The position numbers were made by a program, and so were the translations under genes. A DNA stretch of 43,195 nt, taken from NCBI GenBank assembly GCA_012729595.1, contig JAAYCU010000162.1, positions 1 through 43,195 on the forward strand, in the 5' to 3' direction. The DNA is from Phycisphaerales bacterium (GTDB lineage Bacteria > Planctomycetota > Phycisphaerae > UBA1845 > PWPN01). Below are positions 6,234 to 13,342 of the stretch, piece by piece (the stretch's first letter is position 1; each line of letters begins with the position of its first letter). Below the pieces are notes generated by a model that did no database searches, was not told the origin of the DNA, and saw only the letters and a program-made list of their open reading frames with translations.

Positions 6234-7493
6234 ATGAGCGTTGCGAAAGTCGCCATCGTACGGACCACGCCGGCCACCGTGCTGGCCGACTATCACCGGG
6301 TGATGAACCTGGCCGGCTATCGCGACGTGCTCGATCCGCAGGCCGATACCGCCCTGAAAATCAACATCTCCTGGCATTTCTTTTTTCCCGGTTGCAGCAC
6401 CACGCCCTGGCAGCTCGAGGGCGTGATCCAGGCCATGAAACGCGACGGGTTCGATCCGAACCTGATCCACGGTTGCCACAACCGCACCGTGGTCATCGAC
6501 GCCCATCTCGGCGAACGGGAAAACAAGCAACTCAACGTCGTCCAGGCCCATAATCTGCGGAACGTACATCTATACGAGGGTGAGGAATGGGTCCATATCC
6601 GCGAGGCCGTCGGCGATTTGTGCGAGGAGTTTCTCTGTCTTAACCAGGTCTACCCCAACGGCTTTTCCATTCCCCGGCGGTTCATCGGCGAGAACATCAT
6701 TCACCTGCCCACGATCAAGACCCATGTGTTCACCACCATGACCGGGGCGATGAAGAACGCCTTCGGCGGCCTGCTCAACGAACACCGCCACTGGACGCAT
6801 CCGGTCATCCATGAAACCCTGGTCGATCTGCTGATGATCCAGAAGCGGATTCACAAGGGCGTCTTCGCGGTGATGGACGGAACCTTCGCCGGCGACGGGC
6901 CAGGGCCGCGGTGCATGACCCCGTACGTCAAGAACGTGCTGCTGGCCTCGGCCGACCAGGTGGCCATCGACGCGGTGGCCGCCCGCCTGATGGGCTTCGA
7001 TCCGCTCCGCGATGTGAAATTCATCCGCCTGGCTCACGAGCGCGGCCTGGGCTGCGGCGACATCAGGGACATCGAGATCGTCGGAGACGCCGAGGCCGCC
7101 GCCGAGAACTGGCATTTCGACGGACCGTTCAAGAAGATGACCTTCGCCAGCCGTATGCAGCACCGGATCTACTGGGGTCGCCTCAAAGGCGCTCTGGAAT
7201 GGTCGTTGCGGACCTGGCTGGCTCCGTGGGCTTATGTCGCCAGCGTGTTATACCACGACGTGTACTGGTACCCGCGTTTCAGTCGGCGGCAGATGCAAGC
7301 GGCCATAAGAAGTGAATGGGGGCGACTCTTTTTGAACTGGGAAAAGCTCACTCCCGACGAGCAGGGCTGGCCTATGGTTGGTCCCCTTTCAGCACGGGTG
7401 TTGCGTCGGACTGGCCAACTGCTTCGCACCGCCGTCGGCGTGCTCGGCACCTGCCTGGCCGAGGCCCCGGAAACCCGTCGTCGAAAATCATAG
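6234..7493 (+). CDS. DUF362 domain-containing protein
   Basis: A 419-residue protein matching DUF362 over most of its length: VAIVRTTPATV at the start, then TALKINISWHFFFPGCSTTPWQLEGVI, an HLPTIKTHVFTTMTGAMKNAFGG core, VMDGTFAGDGPGPR and ASADQVAIDAVAARLMGFDP. Some DUF362 proteins carry an added ferredoxin domain, but no Cys-rich iron-sulfur motif is present here. The C-terminal 120 residues have hydrophobic patches (WLAPWAYVASVLYHDVYWYP) that could be membrane-associated. The biochemical role of DUF362 is not established. The ATG at 6234 fits homology, with only a weak GAGGGA about 9 nt upstream. It converges with the DUF1537 kinase gene, 15 bp away. Confidence 0.85.
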   Translation: MSVAKVAIVRTTPATVLADYHRVMNLAGYRDVLDPQADTALKINISWHFFFPGCSTTPWQLEGVIQAMKRDGFDPNLIHGCHNRTVVIDAHLGERENKQLNVVQAHNLRNVHLYEGEEWVHIREAVGDLCEEFLCLNQVYPNGFSIPRRFIGENIIHLPTIKTHVFTTMTGAMKNAFGGLLNEHRHWTHPVIHETLVDLLMIQKRIHKGVFAVMDGTFAGDGPGPRCMTPYVKNVLLASADQVAIDAVAARLMGFDPLRDVKFIRLAHERGLGCGDIRDIEIVGDAEAAAENWHFDGPFKKMTFASRMQHRIYWGRLKGALEWSLRTWLAPWAYVASVLYHDVYWYPRFSRRQMQAAIRSEWGRLFLNWEKLTPDEQGWPMVGPLSARVLRRTGQLLRTAVGVLGTCLAEAPETRRRKS

Positions 7494-7508: not shown

Positions 7509-8918
7509 TCAGGAGTCGATATTGTATCCGTGCATGATGCTCTCGATATATCGCTGTCGGCCGTTCTGCCCGCCCTTGAGGGTGATTTCCAGTCCGTCGA
7601 ATTCAGGTTGCTTGGAATGGGCGGTGCAAAGCGGCGCACCGGGCGCGATCGGCATGCGGGTTTCGAGGGCGTATATCCCAAGTTCCCGGGCGACATGCCC
7701 CGAGGTATCTCCGCCGCAGACCACCACCCGCTTTTTCCCGACAATATCCAGAATCCGCCGCAATATTCGCCCTTTAACCGAGGCCAGGGTTTGGCTGGCG
7801 CTGGCATGCTCCAGCTCGAGTTCCTCCAGCCGCTGCTTCGTAGCCATGATCGCCGGATCGTCCGGACCTTTCGCGGAGTAGAGCATGACACTCCGACCGG
7901 AAGACAAGGCACGCGTTGCCTGCTCCACCAGCCGCGTTTGTTCCTGGTCGCGATGTCGCGGGTCGATGAGTTTCACGGTATCGATGCGCATATCCTCGAA
8001 CCCGATACTCAACACATGTTCGATCTGCTTGCCCGTTTGCGGGGAGCAACTGCCGGACAGCGCGAGGATAGTTGTTTCCTTTTGCGGTGGAGTTGGGGCG
8101 GGAGGTTTCGCTATTTTGCCGACCGCCTGCAGGTACCGGGCGACCGCCACGTTCGCGCCCGAAGAGCTGACGATCAATTGCGTTTTGGACGATTTGTTCT
8201 TGACCACCAGCTTACCGACCCGCAAGAGATGTTCATCGTTATAGGTGTCGAACAAAATGAACTCGCCTTGACGCGTATTCAATCGTTCAAATGCCGCTTG
8301 CTGCTGAGCATCATCCGCTTCCAGAGCGAACAAATCCAGCAAACGTGCCGGTCTTTTCGTCTGCAAGGCCAGGTGCCGCCGCAAATCGCTTTCGGTCATG
8401 GGCGTGACAGGATGCTTGGACATGGTCGGATGACGATCCAGGCGATAGGTCACGTCATCGACGCGGGCAAAAAGGTTGCCAAACACGCAGAAGCGATTAA
8501 TAAAGGGGGCGCCGATAAGTACCGGAATCCAATCGCAGGGAAAATAGCGGAACGCCAGATCGGAGGCGTGTCCGATGCTCCCTATGTCCGGCGAGCTGTC
8601 AAAGGTGGAACACACCTTGTACTGAAAAAAGTCCGCCGGAATCTTGCTGATCGCCTCGAAGATTGGCGGAAGCTCGGCATCCATCTGAGCAATTCGCAAA
8701 CTGCGCGAAATGCCGGCGATCCCAAAAGCCTGGAGGTCTTTCGCGCCGGTTCCGTCAAGAGAGTGTTTAAGCCGAAACTTCTTGACCTCCTCCAATGTTA
8801 CCGGCGCCAAAAACAAGGCGGTTCTAATACCGTTGATGGTCAGATTTTCCATCACGTCGGTGGAGCCGGTAAAGTCGTCTCCATAAAAACTGAAAACGAA
8901 ATCATGATCGAGAAGCAT
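7509..8918 (-). CDS. DUF1537 four-carbon acid sugar kinase family protein (OiaK-like)
   Basis: A 469-residue kinase. The N-terminal domain begins FSFYGDDFTGSTDVMENL (residues 9-26), the family hallmark, with RTALFL after it. The C-terminal domain has the nucleotide-binding segments CGGDTSGHVARELGIYALE, MPIAPGAPLC and LEITLKGGQNG. DUF1537 enzymes phosphorylate four-carbon and related sugar acids such as erythronate, threonate or 3-oxo-isoapionate. The ATG (8918-8916) overlaps the end of the RuBisCO-like gene by 17 bp, so translation is probably coupled. That partnership matches the 3-oxo-isoapionate kinase / 4-phosphate decarboxylase pair of D-apionate catabolism, so this substrate is my first guess; it remains inference. 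Confidence 0.85.
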   Translation of the reverse strand: MLLDHDFVFSFYGDDFTGSTDVMENLTINGIRTALFLAPVTLEEVKKFRLKHSLDGTGAKDLQAFGIAGISRSLRIAQMDAELPPIFEAISKIPADFFQYKVCSTFDSSPDIGSIGHASDLAFRYFPCDWIPVLIGAPFINRFCVFGNLFARVDDVTYRLDRHPTMSKHPVTPMTESDLRRHLALQTKRPARLLDLFALEADDAQQQAAFERLNTRQGEFILFDTYNDEHLLRVGKLVVKNKSSKTQLIVSSSGANVAVARYLQAVGKIAKPPAPTPPQKETTILALSGSCSPQTGKQIEHVLSIGFEDMRIDTVKLIDPRHRDQEQTRLVEQATRALSSGRSVMLYSAKGPDDPAIMATKQRLEELELEHASASQTLASVKGRILRRILDIVGKKRVVVCGGDTSGHVARELGIYALETRMPIAPGAPLCTAHSKQPEFDGLEITLKGGQNGRQRYIESIMHGYNIDS

Positions 8919-10167
8919 GGCCGAAATACTCCATTGCTTGTTTTAGTTCAATATGATCGTCGGCATATTTTTCGGCCGGGATACCCTGTACGGCGGCCTC
9001 CCAGCCTTGAATCACGCTGGCCACCCCCGCCCGAATCCCTCCCGGGTGCCCCAGAATGCCCCCGCCACACAAAAATAGTAGATCGACACTTTCCAAAGTC
9101 TGATACGTTAGGGGCGCCAACCCGGCCCAGGCCCCCGAGCCCATGACCGGAAGGATCCGCCAGCCCCCGAACATCGGGGCATGACAGGCCCGGACCGAGC
9201 GGATCACCGACTCATCGGATTCGTAAAATTTATTACGCAAGCCGTTGGTGTGAACATGATCGATCCCGACTAAACGCCAGATTTTCTGGTAAGCGGTAAA
9301 CTCGAACCCTAGCAGGTCACACCGGTTCAACGCGCCGAACCCACAGCGATGCCCGTGAATAGGCAACCGCGAATGCTCGCGAAGTTTGGCCAGGCCGGTC
9401 AACCCTACGCTCAGGATGTTGGCCATTACGCAGGTGCCCTCATGCCGCACAACCACGTCATGACGACGCAGCATATCGTCCATGTTGCCGCTGATATTGA
9501 ACGCGTACATGGCTTTCTTGCCGGTCTTGTCCGCATGACGGTTGATAACGTGCATCACCTTGGCGACCCGCTGCTCGAAAGGAGACTGGGGATGATCGCT
9601 CAGCAATTCATCGTCCTTGATGAAATCGATGCCGGCTTCGGTCAGATCCCGCACCCGCTCCGCGGTCTCCGCCGGGGTCAATCCAATACAAGGTTTGATG
9701 ATGGAACCGATCAGGGGACGATCATAAACCCCGGTAAGCCGCCGAGTACCTTCTATTCCGAACTGGGGGCCTTGATAAACGTCGCGGAATTCCTCGGGCA
9801 ACTCCAAATCGAGCAATTTGATACCCGAAAACGCGCTCAAATCGAATGTCCCCCCCGCCACGGTGGAAAGCAGGACCGGCAGATTGGCGTGCGTATTCTC
9901 GAAAGACCAGGACAAGCGCAGGCGAGCCCGCCGATAAACGACCGATCCGACATCGGCGGGAACCGCCGATCCGGACAGGGCAGGAGCATCGCGTTCATCG
10001 AGCGGCTCGATCCGCTCGACCCGAGCCCCAAACCGCTCCTTGAGCGCGTCACTTTCGCCCGGAACCTTAACGAATGTTCCGGAGGACTGTTCCCCCGCCA
10101 GCGTACAAGCAGCCTTTTCCACAGACTGCGGCGTTTCGATCAAATAATCAGCGTAAATCCTGCTCAT
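8902..10167 (-). CDS. RuBisCO-like protein (form IV, OiaX-like)
   Basis: A 421-residue member of the RuBisCO large-subunit superfamily. Against spinach numbering I align K158 with K175, K184-D-D186-E187 with the carbamylated K201 and metal ligands D203/E204, H273 with H294, H306 with H327, K313 with K334 and S344 with S379; the phosphate loop LCGGGILGHPGG is intact. Two key carboxylase residues differ: K177 is replaced by C160, and N123 lies in AGGTF rather than GNVFG. So metal binding and enolisation look possible, but CO2 fixation does not. RuBisCO-like proteins next to DUF1537 kinases are known to process 3-oxo-isoapionate 4-phosphate. It is the first gene of a two-gene operon; TTGACA at 10215-10210 (minus) may be its -35 box. 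No Shine-Dalgarno is clear. Confidence 0.88.
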   Translation of the reverse strand: MSRIYADYLIETPQSVEKAACTLAGEQSSGTFVKVPGESDALKERFGARVERIEPLDERDAPALSGSAVPADVGSVVYRRARLRLSWSFENTHANLPVLLSTVAGGTFDLSAFSGIKLLDLELPEEFRDVYQGPQFGIEGTRRLTGVYDRPLIGSIIKPCIGLTPAETAERVRDLTEAGIDFIKDDELLSDHPQSPFEQRVAKVMHVINRHADKTGKKAMYAFNISGNMDDMLRRHDVVVRHEGTCVMANILSVGLTGLAKLREHSRLPIHGHRCGFGALNRCDLLGFEFTAYQKIWRLVGIDHVHTNGLRNKFYESDESVIRSVRACHAPMFGGWRILPVMGSGAWAGLAPLTYQTLESVDLLFLCGGGILGHPGGIRAGVASVIQGWEAAVQGIPAEKYADDHIELKQAMEYFGHASRS

Positions 10168-10635: not shown

Positions 10636-11349
10636 ATGTCTTATAAGCGTAATCAACTGATTGGAAGCTGTTTCATAATTGCCGCCGGAATCTTCGGGGC
10701 CGGACCTTTGTCGGCGACGCCGAATCTCTACATTGATTTCCTGGCGACACCGGCCACCTCAACGGAAAATACGGGAGTCAGCGGACGGCTGACGCTGTCT
10801 TTTTCCGAGGATGCCGGGATAGATTACCTGACGCTGACGATCACGAACACCACGCCGCTATCGATCGGAAGCATGTGGACGGCGGTCGGTTTGGAATTAC
10901 CGGACGAGCTGACCAATTCGCCAATCTTCGCCCCCGGCGGGGCCGGCCCGTACTTTACCCACTTGAATTACAACGTCGAAGCCAAGCCGTTCTGGATAAA
11001 CACTCCGGGCGGATACGATCTGATGCTTACCCAAGACGGCAACTTCCAAGGTGGCAATCCGATCGGGGCTCCGGCGGCCGGTGAATCGCATACCGTAGTG
11101 CTGAGCCTGGGTATAACACCTTACAGTCCGGCGGAATTGAGCAATATCTTTGACGAGTTCTACATGCAGGCGACCAATCATATCGCTATCGCCCGGTTCC
11201 AGGTGGTCGGCTCCGGCGGCGAAGGTTCCGACAAGGTAATAGGGGTACATGTGCCCGAGCCGGCTTCCAATGTTCTCATACTGGCCTCCCTATCGTTCTT
11301 GAATCGTCGTCGGTTCCGCCAGGTTTACAAACCGTATCCTGGATCTTAG
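10636..11349 (+). CDS. PEP-CTERM sorted exported protein
   Basis: A 237-residue secreted protein of unknown function. It has an N-terminal signal peptide (KRNQLIGSCFIIAAGIFGAGPLSA, cleavage likely after LSA), a beta-rich body with many Gly, Thr and Asn residues, and a C-terminal PEP-CTERM signal: VPEPASNVLILASLSFL followed by NRRRFR. Such tails are processed by an exosortase, none of which is encoded in this window. Homologues are often associated with extracellular polysaccharide. GGGGAA lies a few nt before the ATG at 10636 and supports the start. The gene is followed in the same direction by a second PEP-CTERM gene. Confidence 0.8.
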   Translation: MSYKRNQLIGSCFIIAAGIFGAGPLSATPNLYIDFLATPATSTENTGVSGRLTLSFSEDAGIDYLTLTITNTTPLSIGSMWTAVGLELPDELTNSPIFAPGGAGPYFTHLNYNVEAKPFWINTPGGYDLMLTQDGNFQGGNPIGAPAAGESHTVVLSLGITPYSPAELSNIFDEFYMQATNHIAIARFQVVGSGGEGSDKVIGVHVPEPASNVLILASLSFLNRRRFRQVYKPYPGS

Positions 11350-11586
11350 AAGACTATGTGCAGGGCTCTCGCCATCGAATTGTTTCGATCTCAATCTCAA
11401 CCATAAAGCCACGAAATCCGCGAACAATAGCCAAGTCAAGCTCGATTGGCAGCCTTGGCTGCGGCGGCCACAAGAAAGCCCGAACCATGGAGCGGAATCG
11501 TTCGGGGCCACTTATGGCGGAGAGAGACTGAAAATACGTATTTGTCGGTAAGTTCGAGTAATGTCACTTTCTCAAAGGGGGAAAAA

Positions 11587-12411
11587 ATGATTCAGAAGTA
11601 TGCAAGTGTAGTGGTCGTTCTGTTGTGTACGTTGCCCGCCGCGGCCTTGGTAGTGGACGGCAATCTAAGCGATTGGGGCGTACACGTCGCGGACAACAAT
11701 CAAAGCACCTTCAATTTCACCGCGAACATTGGATTACTGGGCACCCATATCGATGACCAGTGTGACTTGGCGGGGGATAATGGATATCTAGGTCCGCACT
11801 ACGGTGGCCAGAATTTCGACGCGGAGATGATGGCGGTCGCCCTGAAAAACGGTCGGTTTTATATTGCCATTGTGACCGGCCAGCGCCCCGATAACGGTCT
11901 GGCCCGCTATAATCCCGGAGATCTTATCATCGCGACAGCAGGAGGTACCTTCGGTATGGAAATGGGCGGTGGCCAGGGTGGCGGAGCTGGAACGGCCATA
12001 AGCACGGGGGCCCCGGGTTCCACCTACACGATGAATAGTAATGGTTTCACAACAGGGCATGCGACCGCCGACGCTCAGCAGACCGCCGGATCGATCTGGG
12101 GCAATGTCGACTGGCTGCTGAATCCGATCAGCCCAAAGGAGCCGGTGCAGTTCAAAATAAACAGTAACAGCGTACTCGTCGGCAATGCGGACTACGTTTT
12201 CACTCGCAACACTCTCACTACCCAGCATTCGATAATAGAACTCTCATTCCCGGCCTCCTGGTTTGCGGGCAATCCAATCGAATCGTTCACCTGGCTGCCG
12301 TCTTGCGGAAACGATAAGCTGCAGGTCATGGTACCGGAACCGGTTTCCATGGGGCTCATGCTAATCGGTGCGGCCCTCACGGTTCGCTCGCGTAGAAGAA
12401 TCCCGGCCTGA
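11587..12411 (+). CDS. PEP-CTERM exported protein with an N-terminal DGNLSDWG motif
   Basis: A 274-residue secreted protein. The signal peptide MIQKYASVVVVLLCTLPAAAL is followed directly by VVDGNLSDWGVHVADNN, a motif common at the start of secreted beta-sandwich (CBM9-like or YD-type) domains. The middle is rich in Gly, Asn and Thr. The tail is a PEP-CTERM signal, VPEPVSMGLMLIGAALTV followed by RSRRR. The frame is open 47 codons further upstream, but the ATG at 11587 is chosen because AAAGGGGG lies just upstream and the signal peptide starts there. The substrate or ligand is unknown. A perfect palindrome AAATACGTATTT lies 44 bp upstream. Confidence 0.8.
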   Translation: MIQKYASVVVVLLCTLPAAALVVDGNLSDWGVHVADNNQSTFNFTANIGLLGTHIDDQCDLAGDNGYLGPHYGGQNFDAEMMAVALKNGRFYIAIVTGQRPDNGLARYNPGDLIIATAGGTFGMEMGGGQGGGAGTAISTGAPGSTYTMNSNGFTTGHATADAQQTAGSIWGNVDWLLNPISPKEPVQFKINSNSVLVGNADYVFTRNTLTTQHSIIELSFPASWFAGNPIESFTWLPSCGNDKLQVMVPEPVSMGLMLIGAALTVRSRRRIPA

Positions 12412-12634: not shown

Positions 12635-13342
12635 GTGGCCAAGCAGAGGAAAGCTCACAAGAGCCGATCTAAAGGAACACCAGCCAAGCCCAAAAAGGCT
12701 TCGATCGCTAAAACTGCGGGTGTGAAGCGTAAATCGGTCAAAAAAGCCACGGTCACAAAACCGGTTATCGCGAAAAAGGCCTCATTGAAAAAACCCGCAT
12801 CCTCAATAAAACCTGAAAAATCCAAGTCTGTAAAGAAAGGCATTGAATCTCCGAAGATATCCAGGGCAAAACCGATACGCAAAATAGTTGCTACTGTACC
12901 GCTACCGGACGAAGTGCGATCGGCACGAAAGGAATCCGTCACAATCAGGCAGAGGGCAGCCGCTCTTAGCAAATCGGAAGTCGAGGAATTCCGGCAGATG
13001 CTGCTGGAAAAAAGGGCTGAACTGATCGGCGACATGACCCACCTGCAAAACGAAGCTCTGCGCCAGGGTAGCTCCGGCGAAAACATGGGTTCTTCTTTCA
13101 TGCCGATTCACATGGCCGACCTGGGCAGCGACACCTGGGAACAGGAATTAACCCTTGGTTTAATAGAGAACGAACGCAGCCTTTTGCGGGAGATAGACGA
13201 GGCCCTGTCCCGAATCGAAGACAACACCTATGGGGTATGCTTGGCGACCGGCAAACCGATCTCCAAATCCCGTCTGCGGGCGAAACCGTGGGCTAAGTAT
13301 TGTATTGAGCATGCTCGCAAACTCGAATTAGGGCTGGTCTAG
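12635..13342 (+). CDS. DksA/TraR-family protein with a lysine-rich histone-like N-terminal tail
   Basis: A 235-residue protein in two parts. Residues 1-80 are a Lys/Ala/Pro/Ser-rich tail resembling histone H1-like DNA-binding tails. From about residue 105 it is a DksA/TraR domain: coiled coil (SKSEVEEFRQMLLEKRAELIGDM), then EIDEALSRIEDNTYGVC and GKPISKSRLRAKPWAKYCIEHARKLE. The DksA zinc finger normally has CxxC...CxxC; here the pattern is C-LA-T...C-IE-H, so only two of four cysteines remain. The GTG start is supported by AAGGAG 7 nt upstream. DksA proteins bind the RNA polymerase secondary channel. The gene begins a run with lspA, ribD and bioF. Confidence 0.85.
   Translation: MAKQRKAHKSRSKGTPAKPKKASIAKTAGVKRKSVKKATVTKPVIAKKASLKKPASSIKPEKSKSVKKGIESPKISRAKPIRKIVATVPLPDEVRSARKESVTIRQRAAALSKSEVEEFRQMLLEKRAELIGDMTHLQNEALRQGSSGENMGSSFMPIHMADLGSDTWEQELTLGLIENERSLLREIDEALSRIEDNTYGVCLATGKPISKSRLRAKPWAKYCIEHARKLELGLV

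Follow-up and report, generated by a model that had tools for sequence, protein, structure and literature searches.

A probable variant of the RuBisCO-like protein–DUF1537 kinase module in a Phycisphaerales bacterium, with candidate partner genes on a second contig

To our knowledge, reactions have been established for only a few RuBisCO-like proteins (RLPs). The described systems closest to the locus studied here belong to D-apionate breakdown, in which the DUF1537 protein OiaK (3-oxo-isoapionate kinase) is paired with an RLP, either OiaX (3-oxo-isoapionate-4-phosphate decarboxylase) or OiaT. The latter, an RLP of Xanthobacter, is a 3-oxo-isoapionate-4-phosphate transcarboxylase/hydrolase (PMC6302742). 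The window analysed here, a 43,195 nt stretch of contig JAAYCU010000162.1 from a Phycisphaerales bacterium (assembly GCA_012729595.1), contains an RLP gene and a DUF1537 kinase gene that overlap. The features of this region are:

6234-7493, plus strand: DUF362 gene, convergent to the pair
7509-8918, minus strand: DUF1537 kinase gene, 469 aa, four-carbon-acid-sugar type, OiaK-related
8902-8918, minus strand: 17 bp overlap of the RLP stop and the kinase start, which may couple their translation
8902-10167, minus strand: RLP gene, 421 aa, OiaX/OiaT-related, form IV
10636-11349, plus strand: PEP-CTERM protein gene (NCBIfam match), divergent from the pair

The coordinates and the 17 bp overlap given in a preliminary description of this DNA were borne out by inspection of the open reading frames, and both genes were intact and full length. 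Pfam scores far above chance were recorded for the RLP (RuBisCO_large, 213 bits) and for the kinase (SBD_N, 160 bits; NBD_C, 117 bits); together with the NCBIfam matches, they assign the predicted proteins firmly to the RuBisCO and four-carbon-acid-sugar-kinase families. The flanking DUF362 and PEP-CTERM genes lie outside the operon, which consists of two genes. No regulator or transporter gene adjoined the pair, and promoter and terminator scans returned nothing above chance level. The GC3 of the pair was similar to that of neighbouring genes. Further along the window, positions 10636-12411, running divergently from the RLP gene, encode two proteins whose ends are PEP-CTERM-like (the second judged by eye), and positions 12635-13342 a DksA/TraR-like protein that is extended at its N terminus by a long lysine-rich stretch, ahead of LspA- and RibD-like genes (by eye).

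The active site of the RLP was mapped in an alignment with one form I RuBisCO and 90 RLPs (92 sequences including that of the window). With spinach numbering given first and window numbering second, the residues kept were E60=E26, T65=T31, K175=K158, K201=K184, D203=D186, E204=E187, H294=H273, R295=R274, H327=H306, K334=K313, G381=G345 and G403/G404=G369/G370. Those changed were W66=F32, N123=G106, T173=I156, K177=C160, H298=F277 and S379=G343, and the equivalent of A296 was Cys275. The codons of most interest, with coordinates calculated from the alignment to form I RuBisCO, are:

9607..9618, minus strand: K184-D185-D186-E187, carbamate lysine and metal ligands
9688..9690, minus strand: C160, K177 position (Ser in 84 of the 92 aligned sequences, Asn in five)
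9850..9852, minus strand: G106, N123 position (besides the window, Gly only in OiaX-type RLPs)
9139..9141, minus strand: G343, S379 position (Gly also in OiaX-type and BKACE-operon RLPs)
9343..9345, minus strand: C275, A296 position (Asn in 75 of the 92)

The RLP thus has the K201/D203/E204 triad of RLPs with a carbamate lysine. The preliminary description had reported this triad, a Cys at the K177 position and the loss of N123, all of which agree with the alignment; its statement that most catalytic residues are kept was also correct, but overlooked the change of S379 to Gly343 and the Cys275 at the A296 position. The Cys at the K177 position is unusual among the 92 sequences. In almost all RLP relatives the N123 position holds Asn and the S379 position Ser, and the E60/N123/H327/S379 set found in RLPs of ApnO clusters was incomplete in the window RLP, both N123 and S379 being replaced by Gly. 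The annotated rhizobial OiaX proteins carry Asp60, Gly123, Ala177, Gln327 and Gly379, two of which (G123 and G379) are present in the window RLP. In the RLPs of G004 and G009, two genomes of the same family as the window's, E60 is gone through a one-residue deletion, N123 is kept and Gly occupies S379. Judged by the chemistry of RuBisCO, the loss of N123 and S379 would be expected to remove re-carboxylation and hydrolysis, leaving decarboxylation; because both residues are lost, as in OiaX, simple decarboxylation would be the most likely reaction. The changes could, however, represent decay rather than a new function.

Full-length matches supported the relationship of the pair to OiaX and OiaK proposed in the preliminary description, although the scores fell well below the curated equivalog cut-offs: the RLP scored 462 bits against 700 for OiaX (NF042437), and the kinase 447 bits against 700 for OiaK (NF042436). 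The more specific placement of the RLP with OiaX, the 3-oxo-isoapionate 4-phosphate decarboxylase, did not hold. Membership was ruled out by this score, by the residue set and by the tree of concatenated RLP and kinase sequences, in which a single clade of the window RLP and OiaX was rejected (AU p 0.0006; with the RLP alone it was not rejected, p 0.059). Placement with MtnW (DK-MTP-1-P enolase), named beforehand as an outcome that would speak against the proposal, did not occur, the scores being far below the cut-offs (158 of 513.6 bits for TIGR03332; 202 of 409 bits for NF007095). RuBisCO itself (form III/large chain) was discarded at 234 of 497 bits, K177, N123, T173 and S379 all being changed.

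In the RLP tree the window sequence paired with that of a Rhabdobacter locus, L003 (SH-aLRT 92-93), and the same pairing was recovered in the kinase and concatenated trees with support of at least 99 (99.8 in the latter). Both L003 and L006, which comes next in relatedness, belong to clusters that also contain ApnO-like (PF16896) and ApnL-like genes. Grouping with RLPs of ApnO-ApnL clusters was the sign by which an OiaT-type RLP was to be recognised, and with the 99.8 support for the L003 pairing the window RLP is presumably a member of this OiaT-like branch. A clade uniting the window with G004 and G009 was rejected in the concatenated (AU p 0.0001) and kinase (6e-59) analyses; it was not rejected for the RLP alone (0.062).

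The assembly of the window's genome is 97% complete and comprises 406 contigs. It contains one copy each of the RLP and the DUF1537 kinase genes. Neither ApnO (searched for with the Pfam PGDH_C domain and a protein query) nor the lactonase ApnL (searched for with the NCBIfam model) was found genome-wide in this 97%-complete assembly. The models for both detect these genes in related loci; that for ApnL gave no match in control genomes, yet scored 295 bits with the ApnL-like protein of L011. The absence of lactonase and dehydrogenase genes noted earlier for the window therefore extends to the genome for ApnL and ApnO, the two that the genome-wide search covered. The locus might nevertheless be an ordinary D-apionate module made up of OiaK and an OiaT- or OiaX-like RLP, with ApnO and ApnL located in the unassembled 3% or replaced by other enzymes. 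The location of the nearest relatives of both proteins (L003 and L006) in ApnO-ApnL clusters is in keeping with this, as is the fragmentation of the assembly, while the failure to find either gene at 97% completeness and the loss of N123 and S379, unlike in the apionate-cluster relatives, argue against it. We regard such a module as unlikely, and D-apionate as an unlikely substrate of the window pathway.

An ordinary D-apionate module would also leave unexplained two genes found on a separate contig of the same assembly, C333:

C333 8881-9705: beta-keto-acid cleavage enzyme (BKACE) gene, Pfam PF05853, 196 bits against a cut-off of 24.8
C333 9788-10444: Asp/Glu-racemase-like gene, following the BKACE gene

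In G004 and G009, RLP, kinase, BKACE, racemase-like and MFS transporter genes form one operon with a divergent XylR/AraC-type regulator. Among 101 related genomes, full-length RLP, BKACE and racemase-like genes were each present in exactly three: the window's (G000), G004 and G009. The probability of one gene pair falling in the same three genomes by chance is 1 in 166,650 on the assumption of independent genomes, which holds only in part; three related genomes amount to few independent events of co-occurrence. The window contig and C333 come from one and the same bacterial family, since the window BioF is 61-70% identical to those of same-family genomes, the LpxL-like and thioredoxin genes on C333 show 66% and 77% identity to their G012 counterparts, and tetranucleotide use in the two contigs is correlated at 0.98. 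In G012 (77% complete) the kinase is present and the RLP occurs only as a fragment (residues 101-193) ahead of it, the two together spanning L096:1551-3230 and adjoining thioredoxin and LpxL-like genes with homologues on C333. No native ortholog of the G004/G009 MFS transporter was recognised in the window's genome, the best candidate being a 45% homologue elsewhere (contig C39). A protein encoded next to the racemase-like gene in the window's genome (L093:10913-12286) is 64% identical to one encoded about 8 kb from the RLP gene in G009 (L094:2-1405). Neither matches a Pfam family above cut-off, and an identification of the former as an apiosidase (GH140) was dropped, Pfam and PDB searches giving only a sub-threshold Collagen_bind_2 match.

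ApnO and ApnL not having been found, and given the C333 genes, the G004/G009 operons and the co-occurrence, the pathway is probably scattered in the genome and differs from the apionate set known so far. The preliminary description had suggested that the substrate might differ or that the pathway genes might be scattered; this describes the situation, except that the scattered genes are those for BKACE and the racemase-like protein. The arrangement suggests that the window pair and its likely partners degrade a sugar acid of plant type along a route distinct from that of D-apionate. Between G000 and G004/G009, identity was 77-79% for BKACE and 70-73% for the racemase-like protein, against 54-55% for the RLP and 43-45% for the kinase (G004 and G009 share 77% and 68% in the last two). 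Because of the low identity of RLP and kinase, and because of the trees, the pair looks like a foreign one of the apionate-cluster branch that would have displaced a native pair. Foreign origin, together with the several active-site changes on one branch and the lack of an adjoining regulator or transporter, would fit a module that is recently acquired or decaying, its active site relaxed and with no link to the C333 genes. We consider this quite improbable: both reading frames are intact, K201/D203/E204, K175, K334 and H294 are kept, GC3 resembles that of the neighbouring genes, and the presence of the pair coincides exactly with that of the BKACE and racemase-like genes in the relatives.

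The neighbouring genes were then scored for 80 RLP loci from named genomes. ApnO was found near the RLP in 27 and a racemase-like gene in 48, with both in three and neither in eight; since the two largely exclude each other, the racemase-like gene tends to occur in loci that lack ApnO. In 60 sequences of this family C80 was invariant, and the C-terminal motif contained invariant Gln188 and Ser190 and no second invariant Cys, so that the two catalytic cysteines of Asp/Glu racemases were not found in the family of the C333 protein. With one invariant Cys, and Gln and Ser at the expected site of the second, it probably is not a racemase of the classical two-cysteine kind; that it is an isomerase making the 3-oxo acid is a guess. 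A BKACE beside an RLP decarboxylase has no obvious role. A plasmid of Rhizobium sp. CCGE532 (L112:1-8260) encodes an OiaX-annotated RLP with Cys at the S379 position, a DUF1537 kinase, a BKACE and aldo/keto reductases. This BKACE is only 29% identical to that of C333, so the BKACE-RLP association probably arose more than once. On a plasmid of Deinococcus taeanensis (L121:7081-11052), genes for an extended SDR-type dehydrogenase, a racemase-like protein, a DUF1537 kinase and a class II ketose-bisphosphate aldolase lie in a row, which suggests that the racemase-like family also serves an RLP-free DUF1537 pathway. The idea that it replaces OtnI there remains a lead only, the adjoining dehydrogenase not being LtnD-like.

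An operon of RLP, kinase, racemase-like and SBF transporter genes was present in 38 of the 80 loci, in Bacteroidota and Verrucomicrobiota (for example L010:5935-12000, L028, L056 and L067), and its core contained no dehydrogenase gene. A strongly matching GH127 gene lay no more than about 7 kb from the RLP gene in 11 of these 38 loci (about 2 kb upstream in nine) and in none of the ApnO loci. The closest PDB entry to the L010 GH127 was 5mqo (875 bits against 404 for the next), which we take to be BT1003. BT1003 is an aceric acid hydrolase (PMC10850190). Genes for GH106, GH78-like and GH2 proteins and for esterases were also found near some racemase-SBF operons. The GH106 of L056 was closest to PDB 5mqm/5mwk, presumably the RG-II rhamnosidase BT0986. 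Open-chain aceric acid carries an aldehyde and a hydroxyl adjacent to a branched, carboxylated carbon; reasoning from the structures, an analogue of 3-oxo-isoapionate would be reached by aldose-ketose isomerisation, with no need for a dehydrogenase. This suggests that the Bacteroidota and Verrucomicrobiota operons are a candidate aceric acid pathway. Were the window locus to serve aceric acid or another branched acid sugar like it, the aldehyde would be isomerised to a branched beta-keto acid, which the kinase would phosphorylate and the RLP cleave, again with no dehydrogenase. The dehydrogenase-free operon cores, the GH127 genes and the L056 GH106 fit such a scheme. However, a search of the window's genome for a GH127 of the L010 type gave no match, so aceric acid was set aside for it; this genome also has the BKACE, and its RLP lies outside the Bacteroidota racemase-SBF clade. 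We therefore assign the scheme a very low probability for the window locus. A broader proposal, rather doubtful, is that a second type of RLP-DUF1537 pathway operates without ApnO, a one-cysteine racemase-like isomerase (with BKACE in the window's family) supplying the beta-keto acid, and the substrate being aceric acid of rhamnogalacturonan II in Bacteroidota and a related branched acid in the window's genome.

Taken as a whole, the reading we prefer, to which we give an even chance, is that of a kinase followed by a beta-keto-acid-phosphate decarboxylase, both from the OiaT-like branch, with partners on C333. RLP and kinase would be the last two steps of sugar-acid breakdown. The kinase would phosphorylate a 3-oxo (beta-keto) sugar acid at its terminal hydroxyl, and the RLP, with a carbamylated lysine and Mg-dependent, would cleave the product, most likely with the OiaX-like chemistry of simple decarboxylation. 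The pair would derive from the RLP-kinase branch of ApnO-ApnL (D-apionate, OiaT-like) clusters and have replaced a different, native pair, while BKACE and the one-cysteine racemase-like isomerase stayed elsewhere, on C333, functionally coupled to the pair if this reading is right. The racemase-like protein would probably make the 3-oxo acid, which is the job of ApnO in the apionate route. The locus is thus probably a variant of the RLP-DUF1537 module, not an OiaX system by the tests run and probably not one for D-apionate. Both this locus and its relatives direct attention to RLP-kinase operons in which a racemase-like partner takes the place of the apionate enzymes, and provide candidate genes and, in Bacteroidota, a candidate substrate (aceric acid) to test. 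They also indicate that similarity to OiaX and OiaK alone does not predict the use of D-apionate.

Compared with the described systems, the window RLP shares with OiaX a full-length family match, an OiaK-type kinase partner and the change of N123 and S379 to Gly. It retains E60 and H327 where OiaX has Asp60 and Gln327, and its gene pair is not adjoined by the TIM/RpiB-type genes that accompany OiaX in L110. OiaT probably represents its branch, a likeness judged through the RLPs of ApnO-ApnL clusters, which keep RuBisCO-like residues; the window RLP differs in lacking N123 and S379, and its genome in that ApnO and ApnL were not found there. OiaK is the best equivalog match of the kinase over its full length and, as an OiaK-related gene, the kinase gene overlaps that of the RLP; its score is below the cut-off, and the protein is about 52% identical to its nearest relative, which comes from an apionate-type cluster. 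The closest solved structure to the RLP by sequence is PDB 3nwr (394 bits, full length), which we take to be an RLP of Burkholderia fungorum; unlike the window RLP, it retains Ser at S379 and has Asn at both the N123 and the K177 position. Finally, the RLP-kinase-BKACE-racemase operons of G004 and G009 have the same four gene types as the window's genome, collinear in the former and split between two contigs in the latter.
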